This document shows positions 1-5,802 of a stretch of DNA of 5,802 nt, one piece after another. The notes beneath the pieces were generated by a model. That model did no database searches. It was not told where the DNA came from and saw only the letters and a program-made list of their open reading frames with translations. The number at the start of each line of letters is the position of its first letter. Within the stretch, counting starts at the first letter, position 1. The position numbers and the translations under genes are program-made. The DNA comes from Candidatus Alcyoniella australis. GTDB lineage: Bacteria > Lernaellota > Lernaellaia > JAVCCG01 > Alcyoniellaceae. Where the stretch lies: positions 1 through 5,802 of the forward strand of contig JAVCCG010000009.1 of assembly GCA_030765605.1 (NCBI GenBank), given 5' to 3'.

Positions 1-1826
1 AGCACGCGGTCGTAGTGTTTTAACGAGACCAGCCGCCCGATGTAGGTGCGCAACGTAGCGTGATAACGCTGCTGCAATCCGCGTTCGTCGTACAGCTCGA
101 GCAGTTGCTTGTAGGTATTTAATTCTTGGTCGGTGTCATCGGCGGCGCGCGCCACCTCGATCTTGAGCTGCAGCATCTGCGGCAGCTCCGCGTGTTGGGG
201 ATTTTGCTCGACGAACTTCTCGAGCTGCGTAAGAGCGCGATTGTACAGACCCAGGTCGCGCAACACGACCACCGCATCGCGCGTGAGCTTCGATGCCTGC
301 TGGGACTGCGGATCGCGCGCCAGCGCGCGTTCGATCAGCCCCAGGGCCAGCTCGCGATTGGACGCGGTGTCGCCCACGCTGCCAAAGGAACGCAACGCGC
401 CGCGCACGTTCTGGCTGTTCAGCCCCAGGCTCAGCAGCCCGCCGCTGATCCCCGGCCGTGCGCTGATGAACGGCGCTGCGACCAACGCGCCCGCGCCGTT
501 GCCCCCGGGCAGCGCCGCCGCACGGTTGGTCAGCACCAGCGAGTGCGCCAGCTGGGCCTCGGCGCTTTGCAACAGCTCGCCCTGGGCCGCCAGGGTCACG
601 TTGTAGAAATAGAGCTGCGCGCGCTCGTGCAGCCCGGCGCGCGAGCACAGTCGCGCGAAGTCGAACAGCTCTTGAGCCTTGGGGGATGAGTCCTTGAGTC
701 GCTGAGCCTGGTCCTGGACCAGCCGGTCCATGCCGCGCCACAATCCGCTGTACTCGCGCAGCAGCACCAGTTTCCACAGGGCCTGCAAATCGAAACGCCG
801 GTCGAGCTGTTGCTCGAGCTCGCGGCGGTAGCCGTCCAGTTCGCCGTGCTCGGCCAACCAACGCAAGTAGCGCTCGAACAACGGCTCGCGCTCCGCGCTC
901 AGCGGCGTGCCGGCCCGCTCAAAGGCCTCGCGCGCCTGCTGCAACTCGCCCAGGCTCTCATAGGCCCAGGCGCGGTACTCGAGCAGCTCGAGCTCGCTCT
1001 GCTCGAACCGATCGCCGTAGCGTCCCACCGCGCGCAGCATCTGGTACGGATCGTCCGCGTTGCGCAGCTCGTCCATATATTGGGAGAACAGCTCCCAGTC
1101 GTCGGGAAACACATCGAGCACCCGCAGCCGGTATGGCGTCAGGTCGCTTTCGAGCAGGCCGCGGCGCAGCTCGCCGATGATCTCGGCGTTGACCTGCAAC
1201 ACCTGCGTCTTGAGCTGCTCGCGTTCAAAATCGAGGGTCGCCTTGCCGTAGCGCTCGACCAGCAGTTCATACTGGCGGCCCAGGGCCTTGACGCGATCTT
1301 GAAGCAGCGCGCGTCGGCCAAAGTAGTCGGCAAGGGTGCGCCAGGCGTCCGGATCATCCTCGTGACGCTGGGCATAGTCGCGCATTACGCGATTGGCCTG
1401 CGGCTGCTCGCCGATCCGGCACAGGGACCCGGCCAGCAGCAGCATCTGCTCGGCGTCGGCCTTCCGCGGCTTGATGCGCGCTGCGATCTGCGCGGGCGTA
1501 CGCCGCATGTAGACCGTGAGTCCGCCCAGGTTCAGCTCGCCGTAGAGCGGGTCGTCGCCGCCAAATTCTGCGTCGCTGATCTGCGGCGGCTGGATGCTCA
1601 GCTCGGCCAGCGGCGCGTTGTAGATCCCGCTGATTTTGAGGTTGTCGGGCACCGAGCTGATTCGCTGCGACGGGTTGATCCGCCCGTCGCCGAGCACGAT
1701 CTGCTGCAAACGGCGTTTGTCGATATTCTCCGGCTGCACCAGCAGCGCAACGACCACCGCGGCCAGGCACAGCACGGCGACGATCAGCGAGAGCAGCGCC
1801 GAGGAACCGCGGAGCTTGGCGCTCAT
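1..1826 (-). CDS. Membrane-anchored TPR-repeat protein, 3' end beyond window
   Basis: The frame opens with ATG at 1826 and stays open for 608 codons to the left edge, so the C-terminus is missing. The start is fixed by a perfect GGAGGT six bases upstream and by the TGATG overlap with the VIT/VWA gene. Visible in the protein are a short basic N-terminus (K4, R6), a hydrophobic helix at about 9-30 without a convincing signal-peptidase site, a mixed non-helical segment at about 45-120, then mostly amphipathic helices. TPR-like pairs lie near 124-157, 278-311 (best match, with AWAYESLGELQQAREAFERA), 383-416 and 512-545 (LGLYNRALTQLEKFVEQNP). A Gly/Ala/Ser-rich stretch at about 438-492 separates two repeat blocks. 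TPR arrays are protein-binding scaffolds. I infer an inner-membrane anchor with the repeats in the periplasm, probably holding the products of the two upstream genes. It could instead be exported to the outer membrane, as PgaA/BcsC-type TPR proteins are, if the helix is cleaved. The exact family is not recognised. Confidence 0.88.
   Translation of the reverse strand, partial: MSAKLRGSSALLSLIVAVLCLAAVVVALLVQPENIDKRRLQQIVLGDGRINPSQRISSVPDNLKISGIYNAPLAELSIQPPQISDAEFGGDDPLYGELNLGGLTVYMRRTPAQIAARIKPRKADAEQMLLLAGSLCRIGEQPQANRVMRDYAQRHEDDPDAWRTLADYFGRRALLQDRVKALGRQYELLVERYGKATLDFEREQLKTQVLQVNAEIIGELRRGLLESDLTPYRLRVLDVFPDDWELFSQYMDELRNADDPYQMLRAVGRYGDRFEQSELELLEYRAWAYESLGELQQAREAFERAGTPLSAEREPLFERYLRWLAEHGELDGYRRELEQQLDRRFDLQALWKLVLLREYSGLWRGMDRLVQDQAQRLKDSSPKAQELFDFARLCSRAGLHERAQLYFYNVTLAAQGELLQSAEAQLAHSLVLTNRAAALPGGNGAGALVAAPFISARPGISGGLLSLGLNSQNVRGALRSFGSVGDTASNRELALGLIERALARDPQSQQASKLTRDAVVVLRDLGLYNRALTQLEKFVEQNPQHAELPQMLQLKIEVARAADDTDQELNTYKQLLELYDERGLQQRYHATLRTYIGRLVSLKHYDRV
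351..515 (-). other. Gly/Ala/Ser-rich interruption between TPR blocks
   Basis: Residues 438-492 of the TPR protein break the helical-repeat pattern. They are rich in Gly, Ala, Ser and Asn (for example PGGNGAGALVAAPFIS), with few charged residues and no TPR spacing. Helical repeats resume at about residue 489 (NRELALGLIERALARDP). The segment may be a flexible hinge, a large inserted loop or an interaction surface. The boundaries are approximate. Confidence 0.55.
1737..1802 (-). other. Predicted transmembrane helix of the TPR protein
   Basis: Residues 9-30 of the TPR protein are uninterrupted hydrophobic residues, mostly Leu, Val and Ala, preceded by K4 and R6. They are followed directly by QPENIDKRR. 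The positive N-terminal side predicts that the N-terminus stays in the cytoplasm and the rest of the protein is periplasmic. No A-x-A site follows the helix, so an uncleaved anchor is preferred over a secretory signal. No lipobox is seen; the single Cys (C20) lies in the middle of the helix. Confidence 0.8.
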
Positions 1827-4174
1827 CAGCGCACCTCCAGCGTGGCTTGAATGCTTGTGGTGTTGTGGGCGAAGTCCTCGGCGAACAGCTCGAGAATCGC
1901 CGGGCCGCGCGGCGCGTCGGCCGGAATTTTGAGCGCGCCGATGCAGGCCAGCGCCTCGGAGTCCCACTCGAGCCGAACTGTCGGCGAGCCGGGAAAGCGC
2001 GCGGTGAGGCGTCGCGTATCGCGGTCCGCGCGTACTGCCAGCCGCACCAGTTCGCCGGGCCGCAGCGGTCCGGGATCGACCAATTCGATTTGCGGCGGTC
2101 GGCTGTCGATGACGAAGCTCTTGTCCTCCACGTACTGGTTGCCCTCGACGTCGCGCAAATACAACCGGCAGACGTAGCGGCCGTCGGTCATGGTCGCCGG
2201 CGCGAGGAAACGCGTCTGCCAAACTCCCGGCTCGACCTGGGCCATCAGCTTGACCAGGCCGAAGGGGAAGCTCGCCACCACCTCGACGATCGCCTCGTCG
2301 GTGTGCACGCGCAGCAGCGGATCGCCGGGCTTGATCACCCGCGGACGCAGCAGGCTGCGCGGCGCGGCGAGAAAGCTGGTGTAGGGCGTGATGAACGTAA
2401 ACTGCTTGGACAGGTCGATCACCTCCTGCACCAGCGCCTCGTCCTCGCCGTCGAGGCGGATGCGCTCGAGCAGGTAATCGACCCGCGCCTTGGCCCACAA
2501 CCGCCGGATCCCCGGATGGGACACGTCGTGCTCGGGCAGCTGGGCCTGGACCTCGACGTTGCGCTCGCGCCCCTCGAAACGGGCGTTGAGCGTAACTCGC
2601 GCCTTACCCGGTCGGCGGTAGCGGCCCACGAAGGTCACCAGCGAGCGGTCGAAAGCCTTGAGCGGGCCCTGGGGGTAGAGGTCGACCAGGTTATCCTCAT
2701 CGTCCAGCTCGAGCACGATGTCGTTGATCACCGCCTCGTCGAGCTTCTGCGCCAGACGCTCGGCCTTGTAGGTCACGGTCTCGTTGTTCATCACCCAGGT
2801 AAACGCGCCGTCCGAGGCGCGCACCAAATTCTCCAGTAGCGCGCCGTTGGTGTCGTCGCCCACGCCCAAAGCAAAGGTGCGCACCCGGCCCGCGGCCAGG
2901 TTGTGCTCGTTGTACCAGTCGATCAGCTCCCGCGCCCGCAGCTCGCGCAACGTGGGTTGGCCGTCCGTGATCAGGATCAGCGCGTTGGGTTTTTGCGGAT
3001 CGCGCAGCTCCAATCCGCGCTCCAGGGCGGCTCGCAGATCGGTTCCGCCGGCCATCGGCAGCGTGCGCACGAACTCCAGGGCGCGCGTTGCGGCATCGTC
3101 ATCAGCGATCAGCGGTCCGGCCGACTCGTCAAACACGTATTGGCCGGAGTTGAAGCAAACCAATCTAAATGTATCCTCGGGGCGCAGCCGGGTCAGCAGC
3201 AGTTCGAGAATTTCCAGGGCGCGCTCGATCTTGTCCCACTGCATCGAGAGCGAGGTGTCGAACAACAGCACCACGTGGCGCGGTCCCGCGGCCGTGCCCG
3301 CTTCCTGCCGCTGCCCGCCGAAATCGAGGTAGGCCCGGGCGTAGAGGTAGCCGTACTCGTCGCGATAGTTCAGGCCGTTGACCGGGCTGACGTCGCGGTA
3401 GACCGATTCCACATCGCGGAACGCCAGCACGTCCAGGGCCGAACCCTGTGCGGCGAACCCGTACTGCAGCACCAGATCCTCGTTTAGATCGAAATCCTCG
3501 ACCGCGATTCGCGCGCGATAGCGTCCGGGCTCGGCCGCGTCGACCTCGAGCGGGAAGCTTTGCGAACGCTGCTCGACCGCGGAGAGCGCAAGGTTGCTCT
3601 CGATGCTGATTTCCACGACCAGATCATCGACCGACTGCTCGCCATAGAGCGTGGGCTTGAACGGAAACAGCAGCGTGCTCACTCCGCCGTCAACCTCGAT
3701 CAGCTGCGTGTACTCCAGCTCGATGCGCTTGGTGCCGTAGGCCGGGATCGGAAACACGCGGCAGGAAAACTCGTTGACCATCGAGGGATCGTCCATGCTC
3801 TCGAACAGTCCCGGGTCGCGTTGGCTATCGACGATCTGTTCGTAGATCCGTCGCGCACGCTGCTTCTCGAGGATCACGCCGGGGATGCGCACGCCGTCGT
3901 CCCAGATGGCAAAGGCGCTGATCGCCGCGTCCTGGGGGATGATGAAGCTGTACTGGCCCTCGAGGTTGCGCGCCGTGCCGTTGCGGAAAATCTGCAGCAC
4001 CCAGACGTGCGCCAACTGGTTGTCCACGTCGATCCGCACTTCCATCCGCTCCAGGCGCAGCACCTGCGGGTCGTACGATTTGCCGTAGGGCGCGAGCACT
4101 CCGGCATCGGCCATCGCCGCGCAGGGCAGCAGCACGATCAGCGTCAGCAGTGCCAGGGCAATCCGCGCGCTCAC
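1826..4174 (-). CDS. Exported VIT and VWA domain protein with C-terminal Ig-like domains
   Basis: This is the only complete gene in the window, 782 residues. I chose the GTG at 4174 because it gives a textbook signal peptide (residues 1-22, cleavage after Ala-Met-Ala), has GGGAG eight bases upstream, and overlaps the preceding stop as GTGA. The frame is open further upstream to 4309, but that stretch is an Ala/Arg-rich shadow of the propeller gene. Domains: VIT at about 30-165 (with FRNGTARNLEGQYSFIIP and IPAYGTKRIELEY), a beta-rich linker at about 166-297, VWA at about 298-480 with the full MIDAS set (D306, S308, S310, T378, D404), the family's post-VWA region ending in TPYTSFLA near 596-603, and two predicted Ig-like beta domains at about 612-782. 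VIT-VWA architecture is known from inter-alpha-trypsin inhibitor heavy chains and many bacterial secreted proteins, where VWA binds partners through a divalent metal. No transmembrane helix, LPXTG or PEP-CTERM tail is present, so the mature protein is probably soluble in the periplasm or held by partners. The ligand is unknown. Confidence 0.95.
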   Translation of the reverse strand: MSARIALALLTLIVLLPCAAMADAGVLAPYGKSYDPQVLRLERMEVRIDVDNQLAHVWVLQIFRNGTARNLEGQYSFIIPQDAAISAFAIWDDGVRIPGVILEKQRARRIYEQIVDSQRDPGLFESMDDPSMVNEFSCRVFPIPAYGTKRIELEYTQLIEVDGGVSTLLFPFKPTLYGEQSVDDLVVEISIESNLALSAVEQRSQSFPLEVDAAEPGRYRARIAVEDFDLNEDLVLQYGFAAQGSALDVLAFRDVESVYRDVSPVNGLNYRDEYGYLYARAYLDFGGQRQEAGTAAGPRHVVLLFDTSLSMQWDKIERALEILELLLTRLRPEDTFRLVCFNSGQYVFDESAGPLIADDDAATRALEFVRTLPMAGGTDLRAALERGLELRDPQKPNALILITDGQPTLRELRARELIDWYNEHNLAAGRVRTFALGVGDDTNGALLENLVRASDGAFTWVMNNETVTYKAERLAQKLDEAVINDIVLELDDEDNLVDLYPQGPLKAFDRSLVTFVGRYRRPGKARVTLNARFEGRERNVEVQAQLPEHDVSHPGIRRLWAKARVDYLLERIRLDGEDEALVQEVIDLSKQFTFITPYTSFLAAPRSLLRPRVIKPGDPLLRVHTDEAIVEVVASFPFGLVKLMAQVEPGVWQTRFLAPATMTDGRYVCRLYLRDVEGNQYVEDKSFVIDSRPPQIELVDPGPLRPGELVRLAVRADRDTRRLTARFPGSPTVRLEWDSEALACIGALKIPADAPRGPAILELFAEDFAHNTTSIQATLEVR
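1829..2341 (-). other. C-terminal pair of predicted Ig-like beta domains
   Basis: Residues about 612-694 read as a beta sandwich: a segment around VWQTRFLAP is followed by DGRYVCRLYLRDVEGN and a closing strand SFVIDSRPP. Residues about 695-782 form a second beta-rich unit starting PQIELVDPG and ending in ILELFAEDFAHNTTSIQATLEV. The second ends at the stop with no membrane anchor. The fold assignment comes from strand pattern only and the boundaries are approximate. Confidence 0.6.
1833..1838 (-). promoter_or_regulatory. Shine-Dalgarno site for the TPR gene
   Basis: The minus strand reads GGAGGT here, a perfect anti-SD complement, six bases before the ATG at 1826. It lies inside the last codons of the VIT/VWA gene (those for Leu-Glu-Val-Arg), so ribosomes ending the upstream gene finish on top of it. 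This decides the start and implies translational coupling. Confidence 0.85.
2735..3283 (-). other. VWA domain with intact MIDAS
   Basis: Residues about 298-480 begin with the strand HVVLLFDTSLS. The D-x-S-x-S motif is D306, S308 and S310 (codons at 3245-3259). The MIDAS threonine is T378 in AGGTDL (codon 3041-3043), and the distal aspartate is D404 in LITDGQP (codon 2963-2965). All five metal-site residues are present, so metal-dependent ligand binding is expected. The Gly-rich FALGVGDDTNGALLENL segment at 434-450 matches the late strand and helix of the fold. Confidence 0.93.
3680..4087 (-). other. VIT domain
   Basis: Residues about 30-165 carry the vault protein inter-alpha-trypsin pattern: alternating beta-strand residues, an F-x-N-G segment followed by E-G-x-Y-x-F-x-x-P (72-80), an E-K-x-x-A-R-x-x-Y-E helix (103-111), and G-T-K-R-I-E-L-E-Y (147-155). 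The helix and the second strand motif are typical of the family. The domain usually precedes VWA, as here. Confidence 0.88.
4109..4174 (-). other. Sec-type signal peptide of the VIT/VWA protein
   Basis: Residues 1-22 consist of a short basic start (R4), a hydrophobic core of Ala, Leu, Ile and Val at about 5-16, and an Ala-Met-Ala cleavage site at 20-22, with Asp23 as the probable mature N-terminus. A Cys at 18 follows Leu-Leu-Pro, but Pro at -1 is a poor lipobox residue, so signal peptidase I cleavage is favoured over lipidation. Confidence 0.85.
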
Positions 4175-5802
4175 TGCTCGAACTCCCGCTCCAAATCGCG
4201 CAAGGGCAGCAGCAGCAGCCCGGCGTCGGTTCCCAGCAGCAGCCGCTGGCCAAGGGGCAATACGGCGAACACGTTCGTCGATGGAAGTCCGTGGGTCAAC
4301 GAGCGCCATCCACCGTTCTCCTTTCCGACCAGCAGGCCGCGATCGAGCGTGCCGGCCAGCAGCAGGCCGCCTGCCTGCGCCAAAGCGTTGAAGTTGATCT
4401 CGACGTCGGCGAACTCCTGGGCCAGAGGCGTGCAGCCCTGCTCGTCGTAAAGGCTCAGCCCGCCGCCGTAAGTCCCGACCAGCACGCCACGCTCCAGCGC
4501 CAGCAGGGAGGTGATCCAGGCCGCGCGCAGCCCGCCGTCCTCGCGGCGATAGGTGCGCTCAACGCGCATCCCGCGCACCTGGTTGAGCCCGCCCAGGGTC
4601 CCGACGAGCACTCCGCCGGCGTACGGCGCGAGGCTGTAGACGTGATTATTGCATAGCCCGTGGAAATGGTAGATCGAGCGGATGCTCCCTCCATCGAGCC
4701 TTGAAAGCCCCGCGGCCGTGGCGAAGTCGATGCTCGGCGCGCCTCCGTCCCGAGCGTTCGAGATCAGCACGTCGGCGACGTTATCATGGATAAGCCCCTG
4801 CTCCGAGGTCAATCGACGCACCACTTGGCCCTCGGCATCGAGCTGATACGCGCCGTCCGTGGCCGCGACCCAGCAGTACGAGCCCTCCGCCGCCACGGCA
4901 ATCCGGTTGACGCCGTTGATCTGTTGCGGGCCAAAGGGGCTGAAGCTCGGCGCGCCCTCAACGCCGCCGAGGTCCAGCAGACTCACTCCGTGGTCGAACC
5001 CGCCGACCAGCACCCGGCCGCCGCCGAGCTGCGCCAGGGCGGTCACGTGGTTTTCCGCGGGCGCGCGCGCCTCGTCGACCAGGGCAAAGGGGCGCAGCCG
5101 ACCCTCGGCGTCGAGCAAATGGATCCCGTTATCGCCGCCGATCAGCAGGCCGTGGACCCACGGCGTCAGGCAACGGATCGAACCCTCGATACGGCACAGC
5201 GGAAGCGGCTCGCCCACGCGGAACAGCTCGCCGGAAACCGTGGACGCGTAGATCCCGCCGTCCCAGAGCACAACGTCGGTGATGAAGCGCTCGCCGATTA
5301 CCAACTGCGGCCCGTGATCGTCGATGCGCAACAGGCCGCGGGCCGTGGCCGCGTACAGCGCGTCCTCGTGCCGCACCAGGGCGTTGACCTCGTCGCCGCC
5401 GCGTCCCTGGCCGGTCTGGATCGTTTTCCATTCTCCGCGGACCAGCCCGAGCAGCCCCTCGCGGGCCGTGGCCAGCATGGTCGGCGATCCGCCCGGCAGC
5501 AGCGCGCGCGGAGCGGACGCCGCGGAATCAACGCGCAGCTCGACTCCCGCCGGGCTCCAGGCCAGCACCCGGCCGTCGCACGCGACCCACAGCATCTCGT
5601 CCGGCGCGCTCTGGTTCACGGCCAGGCACACTGCCCGGCCCAGGGCCGGATCGTCGAACAGCAGCCGATTGAGATCGCCGTGCTCAAGGATCGATAGTCC
5701 GCTGTCCGAGGCCACGAACAGCCGCTGCCCCAGGGCCGCCACGCTGTGCACCCGGCCCGGGGCCAGGCCGTTGAGCGCCGTGAGCAGGCCCAGCTGGGTT
5801 CC
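4171..5802 (-). CDS. Tandem-repeat beta-propeller protein, 5' end beyond window
   Basis: The frame is open from the right edge to the TGA at 4171, giving 543 residues of the C-terminal part. A GTG at 5751 is in frame, but the 17 codons before it encode GTQLGLLTALNGLAPGR, which is itself a propeller repeat, so the real start lies off the window. The protein is a run of about 40-residue units, each with a strand pair such as GVLVGTLGGLNQV or RLLLGTDAGLLLL and a connecting segment of the form GL-x-x-N-x-V-x-x-L (for example TSEQGLIHDNVADVL). This is the pattern of the two-component-regulator propeller (Reg_prop) family. Fourteen motifs are visible, which would fit two seven-bladed propellers. 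The protein ends ten residues after the last strand with RDLEREFEQ, so there is no C-terminal membrane helix, kinase or DNA-binding domain. I infer a stand-alone, probably exported, binding scaffold. Its signal peptide, if any, is outside the window. It overlaps the VIT/VWA gene by four bases. Confidence 0.9.
   Translation of the reverse strand, partial: GTQLGLLTALNGLAPGRVHSVAALGQRLFVASDSGLSILEHGDLNRLLFDDPALGRAVCLAVNQSAPDEMLWVACDGRVLAWSPAGVELRVDSAASAPRALLPGGSPTMLATAREGLLGLVRGEWKTIQTGQGRGGDEVNALVRHEDALYAATARGLLRIDDHGPQLVIGERFITDVVLWDGGIYASTVSGELFRVGEPLPLCRIEGSIRCLTPWVHGLLIGGDNGIHLLDAEGRLRPFALVDEARAPAENHVTALAQLGGGRVLVGGFDHGVSLLDLGGVEGAPSFSPFGPQQINGVNRIAVAAEGSYCWVAATDGAYQLDAEGQVVRRLTSEQGLIHDNVADVLISNARDGGAPSIDFATAAGLSRLDGGSIRSIYHFHGLCNNHVYSLAPYAGGVLVGTLGGLNQVRGMRVERTYRREDGGLRAAWITSLLALERGVLVGTYGGGLSLYDEQGCTPLAQEFADVEINFNALAQAGGLLLAGTLDRGLLVGKENGGWRSLTHGLPSTNVFAVLPLGQRLLLGTDAGLLLLPLRDLEREFEQ
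4183..4187 (-). promoter_or_regulatory. Shine-Dalgarno site for the VIT/VWA gene
   Basis: The minus strand reads GGGAG eight bases before the GTG at 4174, inside a longer purine-rich GGAGCGGGAG (4183-4192). It lies in the last codons of the propeller gene. It supports the GTG start over the in-frame ATG at residue 21, which would remove the signal peptide. Confidence 0.75.
4204..5802 (-). repeat. Array of 14 propeller-blade repeats (protein level)
   Basis: Counting residues from the right edge, blade motifs lie near 1-8 (cut by the edge), 28-39, 70-82, 108-121, 148-161, 183-196, 218-231, 263-277, 309-322, 357-370, 397-409, 439-453, 479-493 and 520-533. Spacing is about 35-48 residues. Repeats diverge in sequence but keep a core of small residues followed by Gly-Leu (GTLGGL, GTDAGL, ASDSGL, ATARGL). 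At DNA level only short pieces such as GGCCACGGCC recur, so this is an old diverged array rather than a recent expansion. Confidence 0.8.

Follow-up and report, generated by a model that had tools for sequence, protein, structure and literature searches.

A conserved six-gene envelope operon that pairs propeller, VIT/VWA and giant TPR proteins with putative peptidoglycan-remodelling enzymes

The window analysed here is a complete contig of 5,802 bp (G000:C9) from a genome that is assembled into 157 contigs, and both of its ends are cut. It carries genes for a propeller protein, a VIT/VWA protein and a TPR protein, every one of them on the minus strand (Table 1). These had been described in a sequence-only reading of the window as three consecutive, overlapping genes, and they are confirmed as real by their open reading frames, the overlaps, Pfam matches (VIT, VWA and TPR) and a structure model of the propeller. 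The tight overlaps with embedded ribosome sites described in the same reading are also present (GTGA at 4174-4171 and TGATG at 1828-1824). GGAG lies 8 nt ahead of the GTG start of the VIT/VWA gene, and GGAGGT lies 6 nt ahead of the ATG start of the TPR gene.

Table 1. Genes, coupling sites and assembly overlap in the 5,802-bp window.
Feature	Position	Strand	Basis and details
Tandem beta-propeller protein of the Reg_prop type, 5'-truncated by the contig end (543 aa in window)	4171..5802	-	ORF, structure model; stop 4173-4171
Secreted VIT/VWA protein, 782 aa	1826..4174	-	GTG start 4174, stop 1828-1826, signal peptide
Giant TPR protein, first 608 codons	1..1826	-	ATG 1826; runs off left end, N-terminal hydrophobic segment
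Assembly overlap with contig C60:1-127	1..127		Identical as reverse complement
Coupling site propeller/VWA	4171..4186	-	GGAG 4186-4183, GTG start 4174, overlapping stop TGA 4173-4171
Coupling site VWA/TPR	1824..1838	-	GGAGGT 1838-1833, stop TGA 1828-1826 overlapping ATG 1826-1824

The propeller reading frame is still open where the contig ends on the right, and intact relatives are about 610-690 aa long with an N-terminal hydrophobic segment. The protein falls below the Pfam cut-off (Reg_prop, 0.0044). In a confident AlphaFold model (pLDDT 84.6), the window copy consists entirely of beta-blades and forms a tandem propeller, which matches the tandem-propeller periplasmic sensors BT4673/BT4663 of Bacteroides (Foldseek 2e-17) and also PorZ (Foldseek 2.8e-14). 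This propeller match is generic.

In the VIT/VWA protein, a VIT domain (residues 41-155; Pfam 1e-22) is followed by a VWA domain (about 300-457; VWA_3, 1.3e-13) and then by a C-terminal Ig-like region. VIT followed by VWA is the ITIH-like layout, seen here both with Pfam and in the ITIH alignment (PDB sequence matches to ITIH H4 at 2e-45 and ITIH H1 at 8e-38). The MIDAS of the window VWA is intact (DTSLS/GGTD/ITDG) and that of the Holophagae copies is lost. At loci L051, L052, L054, L055, L056, L058, L059, L064 and L065, another residue takes the place of the MIDAS Asp (LTSG or LTGG instead of ITDG). The signal peptide of the VIT/VWA protein and the membrane anchor of the TPR protein, both reported earlier, were found again when the sequences were read by eye, the latter as an N-terminal hydrophobic segment.

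Because of the overlap at positions 1-127, the operon can be followed into contig C60 (= L006). The TPR frame stays open across these 127 bases and ends at position 5618 of C60, giving a protein of 2,438 aa in all, and several TPR models of Pfam match both of its portions. Beyond the window, C60 holds the remainder of the TPR gene, then a gene that we call p523, a short PBP transpeptidase gene and a convergent SpoIID gene; the cassette measures about 14 kb. The sequence-only reading had stated that there was no enzyme among the encoded proteins. This does not survive the extension, as the continuation encodes a PBP transpeptidase (SxxK, SCN and KTG) and a SpoIID domain; the statement arose because the contig break hid the second half of the operon. 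An M48 peptidase gene with TPRs (BepA-like; L006:9672-11108) lies 3' of the cassette in this genome, and neither G002 nor G267 showed such an M48/TPR envelope gene next to the cassette. At another locus (L057), a VWA-TPR fusion is apparent only, as it is produced by a scaffold gap (a run of N).

The PBP of the window's genome matches PF00905 (9.6e-20) and has within that domain the SxxK, SxN and KTG motifs of a DD-transpeptidase, here as GSLIK, SCN and KTGT. Across 17 copies, SxxK is kept in all and KTG in 15 (it reads KTSS in the other two), and the middle motif is mostly SCN, with SCD or SCS in a few copies. The SpoIID domain (PF08486) scores 30.4 bits against a cut-off of 23. Its Glu154 is common to the copies of the window's genome and of G267, and its equivalence to E88 of Bacillus subtilis SpoIID was judged by eye on unaligned sequences. 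In G002, no SpoIID gene was found next to the cassette; in other genomes the gene is the last of the cassette or is fused to the PBP gene. A single PBP-SpoIID protein of about 570-590 aa occurs at L112 (G394) and L103 (G393), and a cut copy at L059 also passes from PBP into SpoIID. Glycan-strand cleavage by SpoIID proteins is known from Bacillus and Chlamydiales (PMC6635528). Going by what is known of the two families, PBP and SpoIID together would cut and re-link peptidoglycan.

The gene order propeller, VIT/VWA, giant TPR, p523, PBP (and SpoIID) is conserved in Acidobacteriota and in other lineages. When genome contigs were scanned with the VIT/VWA alignment, 33 loci were recovered, nearly all labelled Acidobacteriota, with Holophagae, Vicinamibacteria, Blastocatellia, Thermoanaerobaculia and Aminicenantes among them. 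At 29 of the 33 loci the cassette is present, either complete or as far as the contig extends. Where the contig allows a test, the VIT/VWA gene has the propeller gene upstream at 26 of 28 loci and the giant TPR gene downstream at every locus (26/26); p523 likewise lies downstream at every such locus (22/22), and PBP was detected at 17 loci of the scan. The four exceptions have more distant VIT/VWA proteins, and the partners are absent. Generic VIT/VWA paralogues, in other genomes and on C91 of the same genome, have none of the cassette partners. The C91 gene (L029:10932-13475 in G000:C91) is about 30% identical to the window gene and is without cassette partners nearby.

Similar results were obtained outside the contig scan. 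In G267, which belongs to another phylum, all six genes are co-directional and have unrelated neighbours on either side. Of six class relatives searched with a p523 profile, two have the operon and four are without p523. In a sample of 199 genomes from the phylum of G391, p523 has a match in 20, and 13 regions from such genomes include nine in cassette context and four in which the p523-like gene is alone. For five genes, the matrices of protein distances correlate pairwise at 0.84-0.94 (18 loci, without a species-tree control), as expected if the five genes were inherited together. Conserved adjacency across distant genomes had been named in the sequence-only reading as a result that would support its idea of one complex, and it is strongly upheld, by G267 as well as by the 29 of 33 loci; no flanking gene places the operon in an already described system. 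The idea of a conserved envelope module is thus borne out by gene order and by the correlated protein distances. The cassette is kept across several Acidobacteriota classes and at least two further lineages. This six-gene operon is widely conserved and is undescribed in the open-licence papers searched, in which we found no description of the VIT/VWA-TPR-PBP-SpoIID combination or of the whole cassette.

By a modest balance of probability, the conserved operon whose first half lies in the window encodes a periplasmic, scaffolded peptidoglycan-remodelling module. The tandem propeller, the ITIH-like VIT/VWA protein and the giant TPR solenoid (about 2,400 aa) would form the scaffold. We predict that these three proteins organise the short DD-transpeptidase PBP together with the SpoIID-type glycan-cleaving enzyme, and strands would consequently be cut and re-linked in one place, whereas p523, with its predicted TP0453-like fold (see below), would face or sense the outer membrane. 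The cassette products are probably exported, judging from signal peptides or N-terminal hydrophobic segments read by eye. Further, we infer that their location is periplasmic, that they form a physical complex, that the enzymes are active and that the module helps to maintain or repair the cell wall. Points that speak against this reading are the convergent SpoIID gene of the window's genome and the lack of a SpoIID gene next to the G002 cassette, the variable middle motif of the PBP with KTSS for KTG in two copies, the middling confidence of the p523 model and the patchy occurrence of the cassette among class relatives.

The two enzymes of the continuation favour peptidoglycan remodelling over the earlier suggestion of an uncharacterised adhesion, sensing or surface-assembly module built of three non-enzymatic proteins. 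From that suggestion, the undescribed, conserved envelope module stands, and adhesion or surface assembly is spoken against by the two wall enzymes, the genes of which recur in the cassette. The intact MIDAS of the window VWA, the ITIH-like VIT/VWA layout and the sensor-type propeller would suit an adhesive or sensory role. However, the MIDAS varies across the family and, going by the motif, metal binding is lost in part of it. Metal-dependent binding by the VWA domain is therefore no fixed feature, whereas the PBP motifs are nearly fixed. As sortase and exosortase models also all fall below their cut-offs, we consider a module of three non-enzymatic proteins for adhesion, sensing or surface assembly very improbable.

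The p523 gene starts after an ATGA overlap with the TPR gene and encodes a secreted protein of 523 aa that has no Pfam or NCBIfam match and no sequence match among PDB chains. A model of the G267 copy has a mean pLDDT of 60.7, with residues 31-230 mostly above 70. The top PDB matches of this p523 model (pLDDT 60.7) all come from the Treponema pallidum lipoprotein TP0453 in its various crystal forms (Foldseek 1.2e-4, probability 1.00), and a second aligner (VIA) gave Z 9.9 and rmsd 5.0 over 199 residues, with the next unrelated chain at Z 4.5. We thus predict that p523 shares the alpha/beta/alpha fold of TP0453, although p523 is about twice as long and the likeness comes from a model of middling confidence. 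TP0453 is associated with the outer membrane on its inner side, can insert into bilayers and is a proposed lipid carrier (PMC5421087). Homology of p523 to DUF2138 (YfaA) was considered and rejected; the two are alike by eye, yet there is no profile match (P = 0.21-0.28) in a comparison that used sequence profiles only. It should be noted that p523-like genes of about 630 aa occur alone in Acidobacteriota (L131, L133, L136 and L138), with no VWA, TPR, PBP or SpoIID gene in the region.

The fold match of p523 to a proposed lipid carrier, and the match of the propeller to PorZ, would also suit a machine for outer-membrane lipid or protein transport or assembly. In such a machine, p523 and the propeller would sit at the outer membrane, the TPR protein would span the periplasm and the wall enzymes would do no more than make room; wall-cutting enzymes do accompany several trans-envelope machines. 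However, the propeller match is generic, and the conserved genes of the cassette include none for an outer-membrane channel, an ATPase or an inner-membrane permease. We regard this alternative as quite improbable.

The remodelling module can be set beside several known systems. The VIT targets of sortases and exosortases (TIGR03788, TIGR04286 and TIGR04477) resemble the window protein in combining VIT and VWA in a secreted protein, and the models score 192.7 (TIGR03788, the marine sortase target), 32.7 and 30.0 bits against cut-offs of 551.65, 150 and 250. All three scores are far under the cut-offs. Bat (aerotolerance) operons encode periplasmic VWA and TPR proteins together. They differ in that the cassette VWA protein has a VIT domain, its TPR protein is many times longer and wall enzymes are present; in addition, no MoxR ATPase was seen among the conserved cassette genes (no Bat or MoxR model was searched). 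The VIT-VWA core can be aligned with ITIH heavy chains over about 560 residues, whereas the cassette protein is bacterial and secreted, has its own C-terminal region and is encoded in an operon with wall enzymes.

The yfaATSQP operon of Escherichia coli and the magABCDEF operon of Pseudomonas aeruginosa represent the type II alpha-2-macroglobulin operon and are likewise multi-gene envelope operons, and in YfaQ (DUF2300) a PBP-like domain is followed by SpoIID, the two elements that the cassette also encodes. E. coli YfaQ has a SpoIID match, and its N-terminal 200 residues match the PBP family of the cassette (hhalign 5.1e-6). The natural PBP-SpoIID fusions are collinear with it over both domains (hhalign 7.3e-5). 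The two profiles scored 49.8 and 44.1, against at most 22.0 and 24.8 after shuffling and 15.5-15.8 with the sequence reversed. E. coli's own PBPs gave no match to YfaQ (P >= 0.02), although as single sequences they are a weaker control than the test. The N-terminus of YfaQ looks like a decayed PBP transpeptidase ahead of SpoIID; the cassette PBP retains KTG where YfaQ has KTW. In YfaQ (L035:3149-4798), GSLWK is kept, and Pfam labels neither the PBP homology nor the architecture. We found no description of YfaQ/DUF2300 in the open-licence papers searched.

Beyond this component, the comparison yields no shared members. The cassette has the giant TPR, VIT/VWA, propeller and p523 proteins where yfa/mag has macroglobulin, DUF2138, DUF1175 and DUF2135. 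Cassette proteins gave no Pfam match to macroglobulin (YfaS/MagD), and neither a Pfam nor a profile match to DUF1175 (YfaT) or DUF2135 (YfaP). DUF2138 (YfaA) is absent from the window's genome at E 1e-3. There was no match between the propeller, VWA, TPR and p523 families and YfaA, YfaP, YfaT or YfaS, or between the propeller, VWA, TPR, p523 and PBP profiles and Citrobacter YfaS. The DUF2300 Pfam model does not match the PBP-SpoIID fusions and, across hundreds of genomes, the Pfam models DUF2138 and DUF2300 gave nothing above cut-offs except the E. coli control. As far as these sequence comparisons, made with Yfa proteins, reach, the cassette shares one building block with yfa/mag and no member of it, and it is therefore not a mag operon. 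In E. coli YfaT (DUF1175; L035:9340-9960), a sub-threshold NlpC/P60 match (3.8e-4) may be a further pointer to an action of the yfa operon on peptidoglycan.

In P. aeruginosa, MagD gives protection against some of the T6SS effectors that target peptidoglycan (PMC12663445), and the Mag proteins assemble into an inner-membrane complex (PMC5764988). By analogy, an envelope-protection role for the cassette is plausible. Together with the common PBP-SpoIID (YfaQ-type) component, these findings would fit a complex that corresponds in function to the Mag/Yfa macroglobulin complex and defends the wall against incoming toxins that attack peptidoglycan; the giant TPR protein would then be the scaffold, as the macroglobulin is in Mag/Yfa. 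Against this, homologues of YfaA, YfaT, YfaS and YfaP were not found in the cassette, there is no regulatory or defence-gene context and PADLOC returned no defence-system match, and we think such a counterpart unlikely. Within the remodelling reading, a more specific form is offered tentatively, as possible rather than probable: an undescribed cut-and-relink wall machine outside the elongasome and divisome, with a giant periplasmic TPR solenoid and an ITIH-like VIT/VWA protein as its frame. In these lineages it would correspond to the Mag/Yfa protection complex, and its PBP-SpoIID unit would still be catalytically intact where that of YfaQ has decayed. Read evolutionarily, E. coli YfaQ would be a decayed PBP fused to SpoIID, which would link the type II macroglobulin operon, itself a puzzle, with the chemistry of peptidoglycan and make its role testable.
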